Positions 25,234 to 35,243 of a stretch of 64,000 bases of DNA are shown here, piece after piece. The stretch spans positions 1,116,001-1,180,000 of the forward strand of contig NZ_QCXS01000002.1 in assembly GCF_003260015.1 (NCBI RefSeq), given 5' to 3'. The notes below the pieces were generated by a model that was not told the origin of the DNA, made no database searches, and worked only from the letters and a program-made list of their open reading frames with translations. Source of the stretch: Nakamurella deserti (GTDB taxonomy: Bacteria; Actinomycetota; Actinomycetes; Mycobacteriales; Nakamurellaceae). The stretch's first letter is position 1; each line of letters starts with the position of its first letter. The position numbers and the translations under genes were made by a program.

Positions 25234-26091
25234 TCAGACCACGACCACCGTGCTGGCGCCGAGCGCCACGGCGACCACCAGAGCACTCATCACCACCGCC
25301 GGCAGGACCTCGTCCTGGGCGACGATCTGGCGCAGCCGACGACTGCGGATGAGGACCAGGTCGACGAGCAGCACCACGACGACGAGCCCGAGGAACCCGG
25401 CCACGAAGGTCACCGCGAAACCGAGGAGTCCGCTGCCCCAACCGCTGAAATCCCCGGCGATGGCACTGCGCAGCACCAGTCCCAGCCCGATCAGCACGCC
25501 GGCGGAGACGATGGCGCCGGCCAGCGGCGGCGTGGCCCCCCGGCGCCGGCCGAGCGGCAGCACCAGTCCGAGCAGCCGGTAGGCCAGGACCAGGGCGACC
25601 AGGCCGAGGACGGCGAACACCGCGGTGGACGCGATCGCCTGCCCGAGAGACGGCGCCGAGCCGCTCAGGGCGGCGTGCAGCACCAATCCGGCCGCGAGGT
25701 ACATGCCCGCCTTGACCACCGCCGAGGAGACCGAGGCCCGGTCCAGCGCGGCCAGCCCGCCGGGGTGCCGGACGAGCGCATCGACGACGAAGTTGAGCCC
25801 CACCAGCACCACGACGATCGCCGCGCCCCAGCCCAGCAGCGCCCCCACGTCGTTCCACCCACCGTCGGTGACCCCCAGCAACGGCACCGTCGCGATCGCC
25901 TGCGCCAGCACGATCGCCACCCGCACCAGTGCGTAGGGGAGGTTGCCGCGGTCGAAGAGCTCCTTTTCGTCGTCGAACCGGGTGAGCGCGTTGACCAGTT
26001 CCCACAACGCCACCAGCAGTGCCACGAACAGCACCACCTTGAGCGCCGCGAAGCCGTAGTCGCCCCACGTCGGAACGGTGTCGATGGTCAT
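25234..26091 (-). CDS. DUF350 integral membrane protein (YjfL-like)
   Basis: A 285-residue protein with about eight hydrophobic helices arranged as two DUF350 repeats, each with paired helices: GFAALKVVLFVALLVALWEL (helix 1), VGALLGWGAAIVVVLVGLNF, and in the second half LAGAIVSAGVLIGLGLVLRS. The ATG at 26091 follows the ATP-grasp gene by 13 bp. E. coli YjfL belongs to the same family, next to YjfM and YjfC. The function is unknown, but the association with a glutathionylspermidine-synthase-like enzyme is repeated here. Last gene of the three-gene unit. Confidence 0.85.
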   Translation of the reverse strand: MTIDTVPTWGDYGFAALKVVLFVALLVALWELVNALTRFDDEKELFDRGNLPYALVRVAIVLAQAIATVPLLGVTDGGWNDVGALLGWGAAIVVVLVGLNFVVDALVRHPGGLAALDRASVSSAVVKAGMYLAAGLVLHAALSGSAPSLGQAIASTAVFAVLGLVALVLAYRLLGLVLPLGRRRGATPPLAGAIVSAGVLIGLGLVLRSAIAGDFSGWGSGLLGFAVTFVAGFLGLVVVVLLVDLVLIRSRRLRQIVAQDEVLPAVVMSALVVAVALGASTVVVV

Positions 26092-26104
26092 CAGGTGGTC
26101 CTGT

Positions 26105-27412
26105 TCAGCCGGAGGGCGGGGTGTCGATGATGCAGTGCGGCGCGAAGCAGCTGAGGTTGTCGGTGATGAGCCCGTCGCTCTCGCGGATACCGAGGCCGGC
26201 GGCCTCGCCGTCGACCAACCAGACCCCGAGGACGGGGTGGTGCGGACCGTCGACGCCGGCGAAGTCGGGCAGCGGGGCCAGCAGCTGGCGGACCGAACCC
26301 TCGCTGCCGTACGGCCCGCCGCGGGAGGCGATGGTGACACCGTCACGGACGAGCCGGACGTTGGCGCCCTCCCGGGACAGCAGCGGCTTCTCGGCGAAAC
26401 TGCGGAACCCGGCCGGCTCCTCACCGGCGAAGTAGGTCGGGAGCAGGAATCGGGAGAGCTCCGGGTCGTCCCCGAAGAGCTCCCACAGCACCGCCAGGAC
26501 TCCCTTGTTGCTCCACAGCATCGAGTACGGCGGCTGGATCCAGACGGTGCCATCCGGCTGGACGGCGTTCCACAGCACCGTCTTCCCGAACGGGTCGTGA
26601 GCCAGGTTCTCCCACGGGTACAGCTTGAAGATGACGTCGATCCCGCTGCTGTCCTGGTCGAGGATGCGCCCGGGGTGCACGGCGATGCCGTTCAGCGGGA
26701 CGAGTTCGCTGCTCTGGGCCACCTTGATGTCCTCGGTGTGCAGGAAGGCGACCTCGTAGCCGGCCTCCCGGGCGGCGTCGGCCATGCACAGCACGGTGAA
26801 CCTGTCCTCGCCGGACTCGTCGAGTGAACTCCAGGCGAAGTGCACCGTCCGGATCCGGCGGCCGGAGCGTTTCTCGAACGACGTGAGGTTGCGGCGCCAG
26901 GCCTGGACGAGCGCGTCGTAGATGTTGTTCCACTGGTCACGGTGTGCCGCCGCCGCGTTGCCGAGCAGCCAGTTCCACTGCACGACCGCTGACTCCACGA
27001 GACTCGTCGGGGTGTCGGCGTTGAACTCCAGCAGCGTGGGCACCGCCAGGCTCGGGTCGGCCGGGCCCCCGGGAGGCTGCCCGAACCGCAGGTCGAGCCG
27101 GCCGTAGACGCTCGGCGACTCCTCCGCCCACGACTTCTCGATGGCCGGCACCGCCCACGCCGGGATCGCCAGCTTGTCGTACAGCCGGTGCTCGATGATG
27201 TGGTCGCCGGCGTCCACCAGCATCCGTCCCAGCAGCGTGTTCGCCGTGGCGGCCAGCAGCTCGGTCTCGGCGGTGGTGAGCGAGTAGTACTGCGCCTCCC
27301 GCCAGTAGGAGGTCGCACCACGACCGGTGAGCGTCTCGTTGTAGACGAGCCCGTCACTTGCGATCTGCGCCTCCCAGCCCGGGCGCAGCACCCCGTCCTC
27401 GTGACGGCGCAT
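26105..27412 (-). CDS. Glutathionylspermidine-synthase-like ATP-grasp protein (YjfC/YgiC-like)
   Basis: A 435-residue cytosolic protein with the C-terminal ATP-grasp (synthetase) domain of glutathionylspermidine synthase, but without the CHAP amidase domain. Motifs: WREAQYYSLTTAETELL, PTLLEFNADTPTSLVES (the E-x-N-x-D-T-P-T signature near 120-135), WNWLLGNAAAAHRDQWN, FKLYPWENLAHDPFG, MLWSNKGVLAVLWELF, EKPLLSREGANVRL (metal/ATP site) and a C-terminal GLGIRESDGLITDNLSCFAPH. The start overlaps the upstream stop as TGATG. YgiC/YjfC proteins are assumed to ligate a carboxylate to an amine, but substrates are unproven. Confidence 0.88.
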   Translation of the reverse strand: MRRHEDGVLRPGWEAQIASDGLVYNETLTGRGATSYWREAQYYSLTTAETELLAATANTLLGRMLVDAGDHIIEHRLYDKLAIPAWAVPAIEKSWAEESPSVYGRLDLRFGQPPGGPADPSLAVPTLLEFNADTPTSLVESAVVQWNWLLGNAAAAHRDQWNNIYDALVQAWRRNLTSFEKRSGRRIRTVHFAWSSLDESGEDRFTVLCMADAAREAGYEVAFLHTEDIKVAQSSELVPLNGIAVHPGRILDQDSSGIDVIFKLYPWENLAHDPFGKTVLWNAVQPDGTVWIQPPYSMLWSNKGVLAVLWELFGDDPELSRFLLPTYFAGEEPAGFRSFAEKPLLSREGANVRLVRDGVTIASRGGPYGSEGSVRQLLAPLPDFAGVDGPHHPVLGVWLVDGEAAGLGIRESDGLITDNLSCFAPHCIIDTPPSG

Positions 27413-27807
27413 CAGCCACCCGACCCGGTGGCGCCGCCGGAGCCCTTGCCGATGCCGCCGGACCGGATGGTCGTCCCGGCGGCCTTGCCGGTACCGGGCA
27501 GGCCCGCCCTGACCCGCGCGGCGGAGTCGGCCGGGTTGATCCGGGTGCCGCCGGTGGTGGGGATGTAGGAACCGCGCCCGAACCCGCCGGTGGCCAGGAA
27601 CAGGAAGAAGAAGCCGCCGCCGTAGCCGTTGCGCTCGTCGCAGTTGGAGTCGTCGACCACCTGGTTGTTGGCGTCCACGCAGTAGGCGGTCTGCTCGTCG
27701 TCGTCGCCCGAGCTGCCGCAGGCGGCCACCGACGGCACCACCAGGACGCCACTCAGGGCGAGACCGATCAATCGGGGACGGAGCGGCCGCCGCTCGGGCA
27801 CCGGCAT
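27412..27807 (-). CDS. Small Gly-rich lipoprotein (YjfM/DUF1190-like position)
   Basis: A 131-residue lipoprotein. The signal sequence ends in VPSVAACGSSGDDDE with the lipobox cysteine near residue 30. Then comes AYCVDANNQVVDDSNCDE, a cysteine-containing motif, followed by a Gly/Phe-rich segment (GYGGGFFFLFLATGGFGRGS) and a Gly/Thr/Ser tail. DUF1190 lipoproteins of enterobacteria hold the same place next to YgiC/YjfC. The similarity here is mainly size, lipobox, aromatic-Gly stretch and context. An AGGAGG site lies 6 nt before the ATG at 27807. First gene of the unit, coupled by overlap to the ATP-grasp gene. Confidence 0.8.
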   Translation of the reverse strand: MPVPERRPLRPRLIGLALSGVLVVPSVAACGSSGDDDEQTAYCVDANNQVVDDSNCDERNGYGGGFFFLFLATGGFGRGSYIPTTGGTRINPADSAARVRAGLPGTGKAAGTTIRSGGIGKGSGGATGSGG

Positions 27808-27988
27808 CGGGTTCCTCCTGTTCGTGCGGCGGGCCCGGTCGACCGGATGCCGGGACCACGGGGAGCCGTGCCGGTCACGCGCCGCCACGCTGACGCGGTC
27901 CAGTGTCCACGAGAGCCCCGGTGCGGGCCGCACCCGGGGCGCCGTGTCGCGCCTGGCGCCGCGGCCCGGTGGTGCATCCGGTTGCTGT

Positions 27989-28016
27989 TTGACCCGGACC
28001 CGGCCCCGGGTAGATT
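27989..28016 (+). promoter_or_regulatory. Candidate housekeeping-type promoter for the GAF-ANTAR gene
   Basis: TTGACC at 27989-27994 and TAGATT at 28011-28016 are separated by 16 bp, close to the vegetative sigma consensus, in the 379-bp divergent interval 27808-28186. It would leave a leader of about 165 nt before the GTG at 28187. The rest of the interval shows no gene or repeat that I can support. Confidence 0.45.
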
Positions 28017-28186
28017 TCGCACCGGGTTCAACCAGATGCCCCCGCAGTGTCCGCTCCACCGACTGTCCGTCGGTCATGCAGACGCACCCTGTCGTCCCGA
28101 GGGCGTGCCATGTCCGAGTTCTCGTCCCCCGTCACCCCGTGTCCGCGTGCCGATACCGGCACCCCCTCGCCGCAGCGGGTGAGCTC

Positions 28187-29095
28187 GTGAGCGCGCCCAC
28201 CACCGGCAGCGGCGACCGCCTCGCCGACCAGCTCGCGGCGCTGACCACTCTGGTGGCGGTCCCCGCGGAGGAGGCGGGCGACCAGTTGGTCGAGACGCTC
28301 GAGGTCCTCGTCGGCATCGTCCCCGGCGCGCGATGGGCCACCCTCGGGGAGCGCAAGCGCCGCGTCCGCCCGCAGACCGTCGCCTCGACCGGTGAGCCCG
28401 GTTGGCTGGCCGACGCGGTGCAGTTCCACCTCGGCGAGGGGCCGACGCTGCAGGCGATGGACCGCCGCCAGCCGGTCGTGGTCTCCGACGCGACCCGGGA
28501 TCCGCGGTGGCCGCGGTTCGCCGCGTCGGTCGCGGCCCAGCTGCGCGTGCGGTCGGTGCTGTCGGTGCCGTTGCGGGGCGTACGCGGGAAGGACGCCTCG
28601 CTCAGTCTCTACGGGGACATCAGCGACGCGTTCGACGGCGCGGCCGTGGAGGTGCTGCCGATCGCGGTGGCGTCGGCGGACATCACCCTGGCCGGGCTCC
28701 GCCAGCGGCAGCGCGCGCAGAACCTCACCCGCGCGCTGGCCAGCAACCGTCGGATCGGGGTCAGTGTCGGGATCCTGATGGCCCGGCACCAGTGGACCGA
28801 GGAGCAGGCGTTCGACGCGCTGGGGGAGGTCAGCCAGGCGCTCAACCGCAAGGTCGCCGATCTCGCCGAGGAGGTGTGCCTGACCGGGACGCTGCCGTCC
28901 CCACCCGAGGGCGTCGCGCCCGCGGAGCCGCGCACGCCGCGGCCGCCCCGCGCCGACGTCCGGGCGCGCAGCCACCAGCCCGGCCGGCACGGCACCGCCG
29001 GGAACGACGCGGGCCCGGTGCGGGGTGCGTCGCGGCCCGGGGACGGCAGCGGGGTGCCCGCACCGTCGACGCGGCGTCCGCCCGCGACCGGGTGA
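28187..29095 (+). CDS. GAF and ANTAR domain transcription antiterminator
   Basis: A 302-residue cytosolic regulator. The GAF domain spans about residues 20-165 (WLADAVQFHLGEGPTLQAMD, then RSVLSVPLRGVRG), and the RNA-binding ANTAR three-helix domain about 178-235 (LTRALASNRRIGVSVGILMA, then TEEQAFDALGEVSQALNRKV, then ADLAEEV). ANTAR proteins bind paired RNA hairpins to prevent termination. The last 65 residues are a Pro/Arg-rich low-complexity tail. The GTG at 28187 begins the conserved part. The end of the gene takes part in a 42-bp direct duplication (29051-29162). The GAF ligand is unknown. Confidence 0.88.
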   Translation: MSAPTTGSGDRLADQLAALTTLVAVPAEEAGDQLVETLEVLVGIVPGARWATLGERKRRVRPQTVASTGEPGWLADAVQFHLGEGPTLQAMDRRQPVVVSDATRDPRWPRFAASVAAQLRVRSVLSVPLRGVRGKDASLSLYGDISDAFDGAAVEVLPIAVASADITLAGLRQRQRAQNLTRALASNRRIGVSVGILMARHQWTEEQAFDALGEVSQALNRKVADLAEEVCLTGTLPSPPEGVAPAEPRTPRPPRADVRARSHQPGRHGTAGNDAGPVRGASRPGDGSGVPAPSTRRPPATG

Positions 29096-29314: not shown

Positions 29315-29342
29315 TTGCCCCACCCCCGGCTTGTGGTTAGCG
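29315..29342 (+). promoter_or_regulatory. Weak candidate promoter for the amylopullulanase gene
   Basis: TTGCCC at 29315-29320 and TTAGCG at 29337-29342 are separated by 16 bp, 43 bp upstream of the ATG at 29385. No clear carbon-control operator is visible. Low confidence in this sequence context. Confidence 0.3.
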
Positions 29343-29384
29343 TCACAGGTGTTTCGCCCACCACCCAGCGTCGGGAGCGTGTGT

Positions 29385-32300
29385 ATGTCGGTCGTCCCTG
29401 CCCTCGGACAGCCCGGAGTCGGACGGGGACGACGCCGACGACGTGGCCTTGCCGCCGTCACCGCGCTGACGCTCACCGCGTCGCTGGCCGGTCCGTTGCC
29501 CGCGTCGGCCGCGCCGGAACCGACCGCGGCCACCGTGTCGGCCACCCTCGCCGGCAGTTTCCAGAGCGAGCTCGGCTGTGAGGCCGACTGGGCCCCGTCC
29601 TGTGACGCCGCCGACCTGACCGACAACGGCGACGGCACGTCGAGCGCGTCGTTCGAGCTGCCGGCCGGGGCGTGGGAGTTCAAGGTCGCCCTCGACGACA
29701 GCTGGGACCTCAGCTACGGACCCGGCGGCGTCGAGAACGGACAGGACAACATCCCGGTCGTCCTGGAGCAGCCGACGGCGATCACGTTCGCCTTCGATCA
29801 CACCTCGCACCTGGTGTCGATTACCCCCACCGAGCAGCAGCCCGGACTCCAGGACTCCGATGCCGACCTGGCCGCTGCCAGCCTCCGCGACGACCTGAGC
29901 CGCGAGCAGTTCTACTTCGTGATGGCCGACCGGTTCGCCAACTCCGACCCGGCCAACGACACCGGCGGCTACGACATCCCGCCCGGCACGCCGGCCGGCG
30001 ACGAGCGCCTGGTGACGGGCTTCGACCCCACCGCCAAGGGCTTCTACCACGGTGGCGACATCAACGGCATCACCGCGAAACTCGACTATCTCAAGGAACT
30101 CGGCATCACCTCGGTGTGGATGACGCCGTCCTTCAAGAACAAGCCCGTCCAGGGGGAGGGAGACGGCATCAGCGCCGGCTACCACGGCTACTGGATCACC
30201 GACTTCACCCAGATCGATCCGCACCTGGGCACCAACGAGGACCTCACGGGTCTCATCGACGCCGCCCACGCCCGTGGCATGAAGGTGTTCTTCGACATCA
30301 TCGCCAACCACACAGCCGACGTCATCTCCACGCCCAGCGAGTACATCACCAAGGCGGAGGCGCCCTACGAGGACGCGACGGGCACCGTCTTCGACGACCG
30401 TGACTACGCCGGCGGCGACACCTTCCCGGCGCTGGATCCCGCTGTGTCGTTCCCCTACGTGCCGACGTTCCCGACCCCCGCGGACGCGACCGTCAAGGTG
30501 CCCGCCTGGTTGAACGACCCGACGTACTACCACAACCGCGGCAACGCGGCCTTCGACGGCGGCGAGAGCGACATCTACGGTGACTTCGTCGGTCTGGACG
30601 ACCTGTTCACCGAGAACCCCGAGGTCACCGACAACCTCATCGAGACCTACCGGTACTGGGCCGAGTTCGGCATCGACGGTTTCCGCATCGACACCGTCAA
30701 GCACGTCAACATCGAGTTCTGGCAGAAGTTCGCCCCGGCCATGCGCGAAGCCGCCGCCGCCGTGGGCAAGGACAAGTTCTTCATGTTCGGGGAGGTGTAC
30801 GACACCGACCCGGTCGACATGTCGCGGTACACCACGGAGGGCGACCTCCAGGCCACGCTGGACTTCGGCTTCCAGGAGCAGGCGAAGAACTTCGCCAACG
30901 GGCGGTCCACCAACGTCCTGCGGGACCTGTTCGCCGACGACGACTACTACACCGACGCGAACTCCAACGTGTACTCGACCCCGACCTTCCTCGGCAACCA
31001 CGACATGGGACGCATCGGTTACTTCCTGAAGAGCGCCGGCACCGAGGCCGACCCGGTCGGACCGGAGGAGCTGCTGGCCCGCGACCAACTGGCGCACTCC
31101 CTGATGTACCTCACGCGCGGTCAGCCGGTCGTCTACTACGGCGACGAGCAGGGTTTCGTCGGCGACGGCGGCGACCAGGACGCCCGGCAGGACATGTTCC
31201 CCAGCCAGGTGGCCACCTACAACGACGACGACCTCATCGGCACCGACGCCACCACCGCGGTCGACAACTTCGGCACCGACAACCCGGTGTTCCAGCACAT
31301 CAAGCAGGCGTCCGCGCTGCGTGCGGCGCACCCCACGCTGGCCGACGGTGCCCAGATCCACCGCTACTCCTCCGACGACGCCGGCATCTACGCGTTCAGC
31401 CGGATCGATGCCACCGAGCAGGTCGAGTACGTCGTGGCCGCCAACAACTCCGAGGCGCCCGCCACCGCGACCTTCGACACCTTCACCCCGGACGGCACGT
31501 TCGCCGGTCTGTACCCGGCGGGCGCCGCCGGCCTGACCAGTGACGACGAAGGCAGGGTGACCGTCACCGTGCCGCCGCTGTCGGTCGCCGTCTGGCAGGG
31601 CACCGCCCCCATCCCGGCGTCCGCGGCCGCACCGGAGATGACCTTCCGCAACGTGCCGGGCAGCACCGTCGGCGGCCGCGCCGAGGTCGGCGTCGCGGTG
31701 CCCGCCGGTGGCTTCAATCAGGTGTCGCTCGCCTGGCGGCCCGCGGGCACCGACGCCTGGACCGCTCTGGGTACCGACGACAACGCGCCCTACCGGGTGT
31801 TCCACGACGTCCGTGGCCTGGCGAAGGGCACCGTGGTCGAGTACCGCGCCGTGCTCGAGGACAACGCCGGCCACCTGTCGGTGGCGGCCACCTCGGCCGT
31901 CGTCGGTGATCCCGCGCCGCCGCCGGTCGATCCCGGTGAGCCCGGCGGGCCGGTCGAGCAGCCCGGCAGCGTGACGGTCGCCGGCACGCTGAACACCGAG
32001 ATGGGTTGCGCGTCCGACTGGGAGCCGTCGTGCGCGGCGGCGCACCTGACCCTGCGCGACGACGGTGTGTGGTCGGGGACGTTCACCCTCCCGGCCGGTG
32101 ACTACCAGTACAAGGCCGCGATCGACGATGCCTGGACCGAGAACTACGGCGCAGGTGGAGCTTTCAACGGGGGCAACATCTCGGTCACGGTGGCCGAGGG
32201 CGCGACCGAGATCACCTTCTGGTACGACCACGGCACGCACTGGATCACCGCCTCCCCGCCGACCCCCGTGGTCACCGCCGTCGGCTCGTTCCAGTCCGAG

Positions 32301-35243
32301 CTGGGTTGTGCGGCGGACTGGTCGCCGGAGTGCCTGCGCAGCTGGTTGCAGGACGTCGACGGTGACGGCATCTACACCTTCGCCACCGCGTCCATCCCGG
32401 CCGGCAGCTACGAGACGAAGGCGACCGTCGGCCTCAGCTTCGACGAGAACTACGGTGCCGGCGGCACCGCCGGCGGGGACAACATCCCGTTCACCGTTCC
32501 CGCGGGCGCCGTGACCCGCTTCACCTACGACTCCGTCAGTCATGCTCTGACGGTGACCAGTGGAGCGTCGACCGCCGCCGACCTGTCGACCGCCCGGGCG
32601 CAGTGGGTCCAGCGGGGCCTGGTGGCCTGGGACCTGCCGGCCGAGGCGGCCGGGTGGAGCTTCCGGCTCTACGCCGCGCCGGAGGGCGGCCTCGGGTTGG
32701 ACGCCGAGGCGGTGACCGGAGGTGACAGCGTCCCGCTGACGCTCGACCCCGCCGGGCTGCCGGCCGACACGGCGGCCGCCTGGCCGCAGCTGGCCGGGTA
32801 CGACGCGCTCCGCCTGCGGGACAGCGACGCCGGCGACCGCCGGCTGCTGCAGGAGATCCTCGGCGGGCAGATGGCGGTGGCCGCGTTCGACGACCTCGGC
32901 CGGCTCGTGGACGCCACCGGCGTCCAGACCCCCGGGGTGCTGGACGACCTCTACCGGGGAGCCACCTCGGCGACGCTCGGCGTCTCGTTCCTCACGCTGC
33001 GCTTCGGGTCCCTGCGGTTCAGCATGCCGTCGATGAAGGTGTGGGCCCCGACCGCCAAGACCGTGTCGCTGCGCATCGACCCGGTGGGCCCGGAGGGCGA
33101 GGTGGTCCTGCCGATGTTCCGGGATTCGCAGGGGGTCTGGTCGTCCCAGGCGTTGGCACCTCGCTTCGTCGGCGCCGCCTACGCCTACGACGTCACGGTG
33201 TACGTGCCGTCCGCCGGTCAGGTGCAGACCACGACGGTGACCGATCCCTACAGCGTCGCGCTCACCACCGACTCGAGGCGCTCGGTGGTGGCCGACCTGG
33301 CCGGCCCGGCGCTGCAGCCGGCGGGGTGGAACGACCTGCGCAAGCCCGCGCTCGCCCAACCCGAGGACTCGAGCATCTACGAGCTGCACATCCGGGACTT
33401 CTCCATCTCCGACACCACGGTGCCGGCGGCCGAGCGCGGCACCTACCTCGCCTTCACGCACCCGGAGTCCGCGGGCATGACCCACCTCGCGCAGCTGGCG
33501 GACGCGGGCCTGAACACCGTGCACCTGCTGCCTGCGTTCGACATCGCCACCATTCCCGAGAACCGTGCGGCGCAGCAGACTCCCGCCTGTGACCTGGCGG
33601 CGCTGTCGGCGGCCGACCCGGCCGGTACCGCACAGCAGGACTGCGTCAGCGCCGTCGCCGGTGCGGACGCGTTCAACTGGGGCTACGACCCGTTCCACTA
33701 CACGACCCCTGAGGGCTCGTACGCGACCGACCCCGAGGGGCCCGGACGGACCCGGGAGTTCCGGCAGATGGTGGCCGGGCTCAACGAGGCCGGCCTGCGG
33801 GTGGTGATGGACGTGGTCTACAACCACACCGCGTCGTCGGGCCAGGATCCCACGTCGGTGCTCGACAAGGTGGTTCCCGGCTACTACCAGCGGCTGTCGG
33901 CGACCGGCGCACTGGAGACCTCCACCTGTTGCGCCAACACCGCCTCCGAGCACGCCATGATGGAGAAGCTGCTGATCGACTCGGTGCTCACCTGGGCGGT
34001 GCAGTACAAGGTTGACGGTTTCCGCTTCGACCTGATGGGTCACCACAGCAAGGCCACACTGCAGAAGCTGCGGGCCGCGCTGGACAAGCTCACCGTGCGC
34101 AAGAACGGTGTGGACGGCCGCACGGTCTACGTCTACGGCGAGGGCTGGAACTTCGGTGAAGTGGCCGACAACGCGCGGTTCGAGCAGGCCACCCAGCTCA
34201 ACATGGCCGGTACCGGCATTGGCACCTTCAACGACCGGCTCCGGGACGGCGTGCGCGGTGGCGGCCCGTTCGACGAGGACCCGCGGGTCCAGGGCTTCGG
34301 CTCGGGCCTGTTCACCGATCCGAACGCCCTTCCCGCCAACGCCGGGGACACCGCCCGCCAGACCCTGTTGCAGTACCAGGACTGGATCAAGGTCGGCCTG
34401 ACCGGCAATCTCCGGGACTACCGGCTGGTCGACCGGACCGGGGCGACCGTCACCGGCGGCGACATCCCCTACGGCGCGGAGGGATCGGCGCCGGTGGGGT
34501 ACACCGCGGACCCGTCGGAGGTGATCACCTACGTCGACGCGCACGACAACGAGACGCTGTTCGACGCACTGACGCTGAAGCTGCCGGTGGGCACCACGAT
34601 GGCCGACCGGGTGCGGATGAACACCCTGTCGTTGTCGACCACCGCGTTGGGCCAGGGCCCGATGCTCTGGCACGCCGGGGCCGACCTGCTGCGCTCGAAG
34701 TCGTTGGACCGCAACAGCTACGACAGTGGCGACTGGTTCAACCGCATCGACTGGACCGGTCAGCAGAACACCTTCGGCTCGGGTCTGCCGCCCCGGCCGG
34801 ACAACGAGGCCAAGTGGCCGTTCATGGCACCGCTGCTGGCCGATCCGGCGTTGAAGCCGGCTCCGGCGGACATGGCGGCGGCCACCGCCGGCGCCCAGGA
34901 CCTGCTGCGGCTGCGGTTCTCCTCGCCGCTGTTCCGCCTCGGATCGGCCGCGTTGATCGGGCAGAAGGTCTCGTTCCCGTCCGGTGGTCCCGATCAGACG
35001 GCCGGACTCATCGTGATGGTCATCGACGACACCGTCGGACGCGATGTCGACCCCGCCCGGGATCGCATCGTGGTGGTGTTCAACGCGTCGTCGACAGCCC
35101 AGGAGGTGCCGGTGGCCGGAGCCGGTGACCTGGCCCTGAGCGCCGTGCAGGCGGCCGGTGCCGATCCGGTGGTCAAGCAGTCCACGGTGTCCGCCGACGG
35201 CGTCACCGTGCCGGCCCGCACGGTCGCGGTGTTCGAGGGCTGA
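29385..35243 (+). CDS. Secreted bifunctional amylopullulanase (alpha-amylase plus pullulanase)
   Basis: A 1952-residue exported starch/pullulan-degrading enzyme. The signal peptide ([20 protein letters not shown], preceded by RGRRRRR) ends near residue 43. Order: X25-type starch-binding module (about 50-150, [13 protein letters not shown]); GH13 alpha-amylase (about 165-740) with nucleophile in GFRIDTVKH, acid in FGEVYDTDP and [11 protein letters not shown]; Ig-like segment (about 750-845); two more X25 modules (about 860-955 and 960-1060); pullulanase N-domains and CBM48-like [16 protein letters not shown]13_14 pullulanase (about 1240-1850) with [34 protein letters not shown] and [13 protein letters not shown]-terminal beta domain. 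ATG 29385 is chosen because it puts the charged n-region first. No anchor follows, so it is released. A terminator follows. Confidence 0.95.

Follow-up and report, generated by a model that had tools for sequence, protein, structure and literature searches.

Glutathionylspermidine synthetase (Gsp) and trypanothione synthetase join the carboxylate of a C-terminal glycine to spermidine, and in the chemistry of Gsp an acyl phosphate of this carboxylate is attacked by the amine. Escherichia coli encodes two ligases, YjfC and YgiC, to which RefSeq gives the product name peptide--spermidine ligase: YjfC lies in the yjfIJKLMC operon, beside the DUF350 protein YjfL and the DUF1190 protein YjfM, and YgiC is encoded directly after the DUF1190 lipoprotein YgiB in ygiBC. 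Here we describe a three-gene unit in a stretch of 64,000 nucleotides of Nakamurella deserti (contig NZ_QCXS01000002.1, positions 1,116,001 to 1,180,000; the whole stretch is referred to as the window), in which a small exported lipoprotein, an ATP-grasp ligase and a DUF350 membrane protein are encoded consecutively. The constant pair within such units is the ligase and its exported partner. Judged from their sequences, partners with unlike bodies share a tail whose end is conserved relative to the free C-terminus.

One passage of a paper that cites Pederick 2023 calls YjfC and YgiC peptidylpolyamine synthetases (PMC12568646), and a passage of another attributes the gene context of yjf to the same work (PMC10948618). 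The operon section of Ravi et al. 2024 (PMC11237479) describes operons with a GSP-synthetase-like ATP-grasp protein, a DUF350 protein, a DUF1190 lipoprotein and S-adenosylmethionine (AdoMet) decarboxylase, and variants replacing the PspA dyad. No natural substrate of YgiC or YjfC was named in the literature that we searched.

The three-gene unit and its ligase

The features of the unit, in window coordinates, are as follows.

27412 to 27807, minus strand: small exported lipoprotein of 131 amino acids with lipobox Cys30 and conserved Cys43 and Cys56, ending in TTIRSGGIGKGSGGATGSGG
27718 to 27720, minus strand: codon of the lipobox cysteine (Cys30; lipobox VAAC)
27415 to 27459, minus strand: codons of lipoprotein residues 117 to 131, comprising the Gly/Ser tail, the SGGIGKG motif and the C-terminal Gly-Gly, the proposed ligation site
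26105 to 27412, minus strand: ATP-grasp ligase of the GSP_synth family, 435 amino acids, YjfC/YgiC-like
25234 to 26091, minus strand: DUF350 membrane protein of 285 amino acids with a repeated domain

The three genes fill positions 25234 to 27807 exactly and are transcribed from the minus strand in the order lipoprotein, ligase, DUF350. The stop codon of the lipoprotein gene and the start codon of the ligase gene share one base (TGATG), and 13 nucleotides separate the ligase stop from the DUF350 start. The aromatic-glycine stretch of the lipoprotein reads YGGGFFFLF.

By profile, residues and fold, the enzyme belongs to the YjfC/YgiC branch of the GSP_synth ATP-grasp ligases. The Pfam profile GSP_synth (PF03738) matched residues 13 to 428 over its full length (positions 1 to 371 of 371) with an E value of 1.3e-112, and the ligase shares 36% identity with E. 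coli YjfC and 38% with YgiC, which are also the nearest solved structures by sequence. Its predicted model (predicted local distance difference test score, pLDDT, 88.3; predicted template modeling score, pTM, 0.90) matched 7uk6 (YjfC, E value 3.6e-34) and 7uk8 (YgiC, 6.9e-31) best in the PDB, with 7uka also among the best matches and Gsp following. A search of the PDB with the ligase profile (A2) recovered YgiC (7uk8), YjfC (7uk6), trypanothione synthetase (1.3e-57) and Gsp (2.8e-50). Seven polar residues, R105, D107, E129, N131, K303, K342 and R410 (alignment numbering plus 12), were identical in all 159 aligned ligases, which came from six phyla, and we take them to be ATP/Mg residues. Counted along the profile alignment, the first four correspond to R316, D318, E330 and N332 of E. 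coli Gsp, presumably catalytic residues of that enzyme. The profile for bifunctional glutathionylspermidine synthetase/amidase (NF007801) gave 74.6 bits against an equivalog cut-off of 882, and no amidase domain was found in the 435 residues of the ligase. By relationship, the window enzyme is a putative member of the peptide--spermidine ligases, a class whose activity is the ATP-dependent joining of a peptide carboxylate to spermidine.

A first-pass annotation of this DNA had described the three consecutive genes, including the cysteines and aromatic-glycine stretch of the lipoprotein and the TGATG overlap, and our coordinates and Pfam matches confirm that observation. It had further read the unit as an actinobacterial version of yjfM-yjfC-yjfL, which is right as to the type of ligase and the adjacency of the genes, but the lipoprotein is not a DUF1190 protein, the gene order differs and DUF350 is found at 37 of 76 loci only. 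Its remark that the function of these genes in enterobacteria is unknown is outdated, given the RefSeq names of YjfC and YgiC and the activity reported. Its argument that the ligase must join something other than glutathione because Actinobacteria generally lack that compound is weak, because YgiC is reported, in a passage of PMC12506659, to be without the activity of Gsp even in E. coli.

Pairing of the ligase with an exported partner

We fetched 114 loci (80 named and 34 unnamed); some are duplicates, L004 and L069 apparently being the same contig. A simple rule that selected partners by Gly motifs and cysteines, and not by the last residue, placed a small exported protein immediately before the ligase at 110 of the 114. 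A partner profile added three more (at L019, at L027 and, in truncated form, at L050), and in the last locus, L036, the ligase match itself was below the cut-off. The seed partner profile matched 108 of its own 110 partners, those of L053 and L054 being the two not matched. At loci with a strong ligase match, the partner was present in 18 of 18 cases in Acidobacteriota and 12 of 13 in Bacteroidota (L145 being without), as well as at 23 of 24 plasmid loci hand-chosen from 60 listed, the exception being Azospirillum. The partner gene is mostly upstream of the ligase gene, and downstream in Rhodobacterales and Roseomonas. Besides the ligase, no neighbor family was present in more than 33 of 80 loci.

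The first-pass annotation had held that its proposal would fall if the association did not recur outside enterobacteria. The pair does recur there, in Actinomycetota, Acidobacteriota, Bacteroidota, one Verrucomicrobiota, one Deinococcota, two Bacillota and two Cyanobacteriota loci, and within the genus of the window it is present in the four other ligase-bearing genomes (G004, G008, G010 and G012). Among 41 genomes including that of the window, the ligase was found in 10, and the actinobacterial partner profile (A3) matched in the same 10 and, weakly, in one of the other 31. In 396 genomes of the phylum, in each of which at most 11 candidates were scored with A3, the ligase exceeded the cut-off in 25, and A3 matched in the same 25 and weakly in three more (E values of 1.2e-4 to 4e-4). 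The profile, which contains the sequence of the window lipoprotein, matches it with an E value of 2.9e-27. Co-occurrence holds for ligase and partner (10 of 10 and 25 of 25 genomes). Within the candidates scored per genome, the near-absence of the partner from ligase-free genomes is not circular.

More distant ligases of Bacteroidota and Acidobacteriota are often accompanied by another exported partner, typically of 450 to 500 amino acids, with a Gly/Ser/Arg tail; such a partner was found at 13 of 19 distant loci over the cut-off. Because most of these proteins were picked out by the composition and the last residues of their tails, they provide no independent evidence on the last residues, and they were excluded from the end-residue statistics below. 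The distant partner at L155, found by eye, ends in Leu. In Actinomadura barringtoniae, tandem partner genes with RGGFG tails (L089, 2766 to 3404 and 3596 to 3991) precede a single ligase gene.

A conserved C-terminus on unlike bodies

Gly/Ser-rich C-terminal tails are common to the DUF1190, actinobacterial, bacteroidete, acidobacterial, bacillar and cyanobacterial partners. Of 166 partners, 138 have a GGxG motif in their last 60 residues, in 116 cases at a distance of 7 to 14 residues from the end, and the stricter form R.?GG[FYWLIM]G is present in 116 of the 166, including 15 of 17 Pseudomonadota and 20 of 21 Acidobacteriota. In a set of 29 sequences, residues G117 and G118 of the window lipoprotein are invariant and G120 is nearly so. 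For statistics on the end residues, 87 non-redundant partners were taken from the 166, and the last 12 residues of each were shuffled 5000 times. Of the 87, 75 have Gly as penultimate residue (shuffle mean, 37.3) and 46 a Gly-Gly end (shuffle mean, 15.9); as last residue, 47 carry Gly, 32 Ser and 6 Glu. A Gly-Gly end is found in 18 of the 22 partners from Pseudomonadota, Deinococcota, Bacillota and Cyanobacteriota taken together (shuffle mean, 2.8). None of the 5000 shuffles reached the observed count of penultimate Gly, of Gly-Gly or of G[GS] ends (Gly followed by Gly or Ser), either for all partners or for any of three subsets. Among 443 other conserved neighboring open reading frames (ORFs), 11 end in G[GS] and 19 in [GS][GS], and R.?GG[FYWLIM]G was found in the last 80 residues of none.

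Two stricter formulations were rejected. A rule of C-terminal Gly-Gly fails because Gly-Ser (51) is no less frequent than Gly-Gly (49) in 110 partners and because Glu is the last residue in 16 of 21 Acidobacteriota partners; a rule of RGGFG fails because the genus of the window has [RK]SGG[IV]GKG and the Actinoplanes group VVGKGG. The distribution of tail types agrees with the tree of the ligases (14 changes compared with a shuffled mean of 38.5), which could come from shared inheritance alone. Tails of the VVGKGG type in place of GGxG are found at L051, L055, L057, L059, L061, L065, L076 and L083 (the Actinoplanes group and Jidongwangia); the ligases beside them give a longer match, of about 1450 nucleotides, and tail and enzyme change together.

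The bodies of the partners are a different matter. No match to the window lipoprotein was obtained in Pfam or NCBIfam at E values of up to 10, DUF1190 (PF06693) included, and among five other non-proteobacterial partners scanned for DUF1190 only that of L099 showed a match, at 0.093. The actinobacterial profile A3 and the DUF1190 profile A4 align over 20 columns, which cover the signal peptide only. A profile of the actinobacterial body matched 18 of 21 Acidobacteriota partners and had a weak link (2.7e-4) to the Bacillus subtilis partner; it matched none of the partners from Bacteroidota (15), Pseudomonadota (17) and Cyanobacteriota (2) and none of the 13 distant ones. Membership of the lipoprotein in DUF1190 was rejected on the basis of the missing profile match, the overlap confined to the signal peptide and the body result for Pseudomonadota. 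Its context is DUF1190-like in that the gene adjoins that of a GSP_synth ligase and the protein has a GGxG tail and a Gly-Gly end, features which imply no membership and with which it may work alike. Removal of the last 50 residues left 32 sampled partners in 12 groups that BLAST did not link at E < 1e-3, a number that overstates independence, in that the body-only profile joins three of them.

For the window lipoprotein, block means of pLDDT are 79 to 94 for residues 41 to 110, 62 for residues 111 to 120 and 45 to 46 for residues 121 to 131, and its tail is predicted to be flexible. A Foldseek search with the model matched no solved fold at E values of 0.001 or below. The possibility of an unrelated lipoprotein fold, raised in the first-pass annotation as a point that would count against its proposal, may thus apply to the body; only the tail is common to both. 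Among the partners, 15 of 17 from Pseudomonadota, 76 of 107 from Actinomycetota and 19 of 21 from Acidobacteriota have a lipobox-like site, and some partners, including some distant ones, carry what we take to be twin-arginine translocation (Tat)-like signals. Both kinds of signal fit export after modification.

A proposed tail-capping reaction and its alternatives

The family chemistry, as it operates in Gsp, together with conservation anchored to the end of the partner suggests that the ligase caps the C-terminus of its partner before export. We consider it rather likely that the unit is a protein-tail capping system in which the ligase would join an amine to the C-terminal carboxylate of the partner. 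In the cytoplasm and before export, the ligase would convert the C-terminal carboxylate (Gly131 of ...GSGG) into an acyl phosphate at the expense of ATP, and the amino group of a small amine would then attack this acyl phosphate, yielding a lipoprotein with a positively charged amide at the outside end of its tail. The GGxG motif may serve as a docking site for the ligase, and the Gly/Ser stretch as a tether that reaches the active site. Where a DUF350 protein is present, its role may be to handle the amine or to sense it, or to bind the lipoprotein at the membrane once this is capped. The conjugation itself, its timing, the docking role of GGxG and the identity of the amine are points that we infer. 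The suggestion in the first-pass annotation that the ligase might modify the lipoprotein fits the C-terminal signature.

Taken more broadly, ligases of the GSP_synth fold would constitute a bacterial system of protein C-terminal conjugation in at least eight phyla, in which an amine is placed on the free Gly-Gly or Gly-Ser end of dedicated exported proteins, the tail and not the body defines the substrate, and an ATP-grasp enzyme acts instead of E1 and E2. We regard the case for this generalization as evenly balanced.

Several observations weigh against tail capping. The timing is awkward for a cytoplasmic enzyme with an exported partner. The last residue varies, being Ser in 21 of 45 non-redundant Actinomycetota and Glu in most Acidobacteriota (16 of 21); other ends are VSS or ASS in 7 of 15 Bacteroidota and TIIT in the one Verrucomicrobiota. 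Considered by itself, Gly as last residue in Actinomycetota (24 of 45) is not above composition, given that 1464 of 5000 shuffles reach that count. The motif is incomplete as well: the strict form is absent from 50 and GGxG from 28 of the 166 partners, and the window has RSGGIGKG, not RGGFG. No partner was found at L145 and one Azospirillum locus, nor was one of the large type found at 6 of 19 distant loci over the cut-off, and the co-occurrence is partly circular in that A3 was built from ligase neighbors. Only about one locus in two has DUF350 next to the ligase, and the genome of the window has no match to AdoMet_dc (SpeD) or Spermine_synth (SpeE), which speaks against home-made spermidine.

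We also considered other explanations for the tail. The ligase may make a free small peptide-polyamine metabolite, with the lipoprotein having a separate role, for example as a metal binder or sensor, and the tail serving only to dock the ligase or another envelope protein. Gsp itself acts on the free tripeptide glutathione, and the setting back of GGxG by 7 to 14 residues in most partners with the motif (116 of 138) would suit docking; the DUF1190 partner is termed a 'metal-chelating lipoprotein' in a passage of the study of Ravi et al. (PMC11237479). Docking alone, however, would not need conservation that is counted from the C-terminal end, such as that of the penultimate Gly (75 of 87), and partners with unlike bodies have only the tail in common, so that we judge this explanation unlikely.

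Alternatively, the Gly/Ser tail may be an ordinary low-complexity linker or wall-spanning sequence whose ends match by composition only. The tails are indeed rich in Gly and Ser throughout, and the last-residue count in Actinomycetota would be accounted for in this way. The counts of Gly-Gly, penultimate Gly and G[GS] ends, however, were beyond all shuffles in each of the four sets, and a G[GS] end is rare (11 of 443) in other conserved neighboring ORFs, which makes this explanation very unlikely. The least probable alternative is that a protease first cuts inside the motif, after RGG, and that the ligase uses the new Gly-Gly end instead of the encoded terminus, much as ubiquitin precursors are cut after such a Gly-Gly: the strict motif in almost all Pseudomonadota and Acidobacteriota partners would suit it, as would the conjugation to spermidine in eukaryotes of SUMO, which ends in LGG-COOH (reported in a passage of PMC12270671), but the encoded end is itself conserved and no neighbor gene, protease or other, is constant (at most 33 of 80 loci, in a list whose families are identified in part).

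DUF350 and the amine

The DUF350 profile (PF03994) matched the window protein with 86.6 bits against a cut-off of 26 (E value, 2e-24), giving two adjacent matches and a third that overlaps both; the three matches in the genome all lie here. For other loci, the most hydrophobic ORF near the ligase stop was taken as candidate, which yielded one at 76 of 80 loci. DUF350 was the next gene in 37 of these 76, namely in 37 of 55 in a first scan, for which ORFs judged likely had been chosen and which is biased accordingly, and in 0 of the other 21 in a second scan. DUF350 as a constant member of the unit was rejected in favor of a frequent companion. In the set of 41 genomes, it adjoins the ligase in 8 of the 10 that have a ligase. 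One downstream ORF among the 21 loci of the second scan matches DUF4178, a family placed in a DUF350 operon in the operon section of Ravi et al. 2024 (PMC11237479).

Six genomes (G018, G023, G024, G031, G033 and G035) carry DUF350 but no ligase. In each of them DUF350 lies 0.8 to 1 kb from a match to Spermine_synth, which indicates a tie between DUF350 and polyamines that is independent of the ligase. At G038:C45:17415-20091, on what is probably the contig of L069, a lipoprotein-ligase-DUF350 unit is preceded by an Orn_Arg_deC_N decarboxylase gene, which lies about 0.5 kb upstream on the same strand.

The genome of the window contains a single Orn_Arg_deC match, which is probably LysA. Spermidine made in the cell was rejected as the amine on the basis of this single match and of the missing SpeD and SpeE. 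With neither enzyme matched, the amine would be either imported or not spermidine; it is probably an imported polyamine or another amine.

Genes flanking the unit

The four flanking genes scanned encode GAF-ANTAR and pullulanase proteins upstream of the unit and GtrA and flavin amine oxidoreductase proteins downstream. The GAF-ANTAR gene (27824 to 29095, plus strand) adjoins the unit, is divergent from it and is a possible regulator. Its true start is uncertain, its ORF beginning within the intergenic stretch shared with the unit. At 29331 to 35243 (plus strand), an ORF of 1970 amino acids contains pullulanase-type and alpha-amylase domains and three X25 stretches. A scan of the unit for promoters and terminators gave no promoter-like site on the strand of the unit and no terminator-like site; the single promoter-like site was on the plus strand.

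Comparison with known systems

The yjf operon of E. coli is the closest described system: it has the same three kinds of gene adjacent to one another, its ligase YjfC is the best fold match of the window ligase, and YjfM, with a GGYG motif, ends in Gly-Gly as does the window lipoprotein. The two differ in gene order (L-M-C in yjf) and in the length of the DUF350 protein, which at 285 amino acids is about twice that of YjfL (132 amino acids), and YjfM is a DUF1190 protein whereas the window lipoprotein is not recognized as one. None of the four flanking genes scanned in the window, to which the search for PspA was confined, belongs to the family of yjfI, yjfJ (PspA) or yjfK. The ygiBC pair resembles the window in its lipoprotein-ligase arrangement, with YgiB containing TRGGFG and ending in SRSMGG; unlike the window, it has no DUF350 gene annotated adjacent and lies downstream of tolC.

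Operons of ATP-grasp, DUF350 and DUF1190 proteins are known in part, from PMC11237479, and the placing of spermidine on the Gly-Gly end of SUMO is known from PMC12270671. The operon section of the former makes no mention of a C-terminal tail or of the actinobacterial lipoprotein family, and its variants use DUF4247 and DUF2617 or a band-7 protein. We found neither the shared C-terminal signature nor that lipoprotein family described in the literature searched, outside of which Pederick 2023, Sui 2012 and Iyer 2009 may already propose the tail as substrate. A partner C-terminus conserved across unlike bodies looks new on the sequences compared here. If the tail of the neighboring protein is the substrate, an orphan enzyme class of E. 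coli and many other bacteria would gain a specific and quickly testable function, the C-terminal amination of envelope proteins, and it would become easier to tie DUF350 proteins and polyamines to lipoproteins.

Gsp and trypanothione synthetase have the ATP-grasp domain in common with the window ligase. Gsp differs from it in possessing an amidase domain, and the substrate proposed for the window ligase is a protein. In the conjugates of SUMO and ubiquitin with spermidine (PMC12270671), a protein bears spermidine on the carboxylate of its C-terminal Gly-Gly, much as we propose an amine for the partner; they are eukaryotic and formed by E1/E2 chemistry, with neither an ATP-grasp enzyme nor a lipoprotein. 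Tail capping, if it takes place, would be the bacterial equivalent of the conjugate of SUMO and spermidine reported recently, giving an envelope protein a charged, amidated end by means of an ATP-grasp enzyme instead of an E1/E2 cascade.

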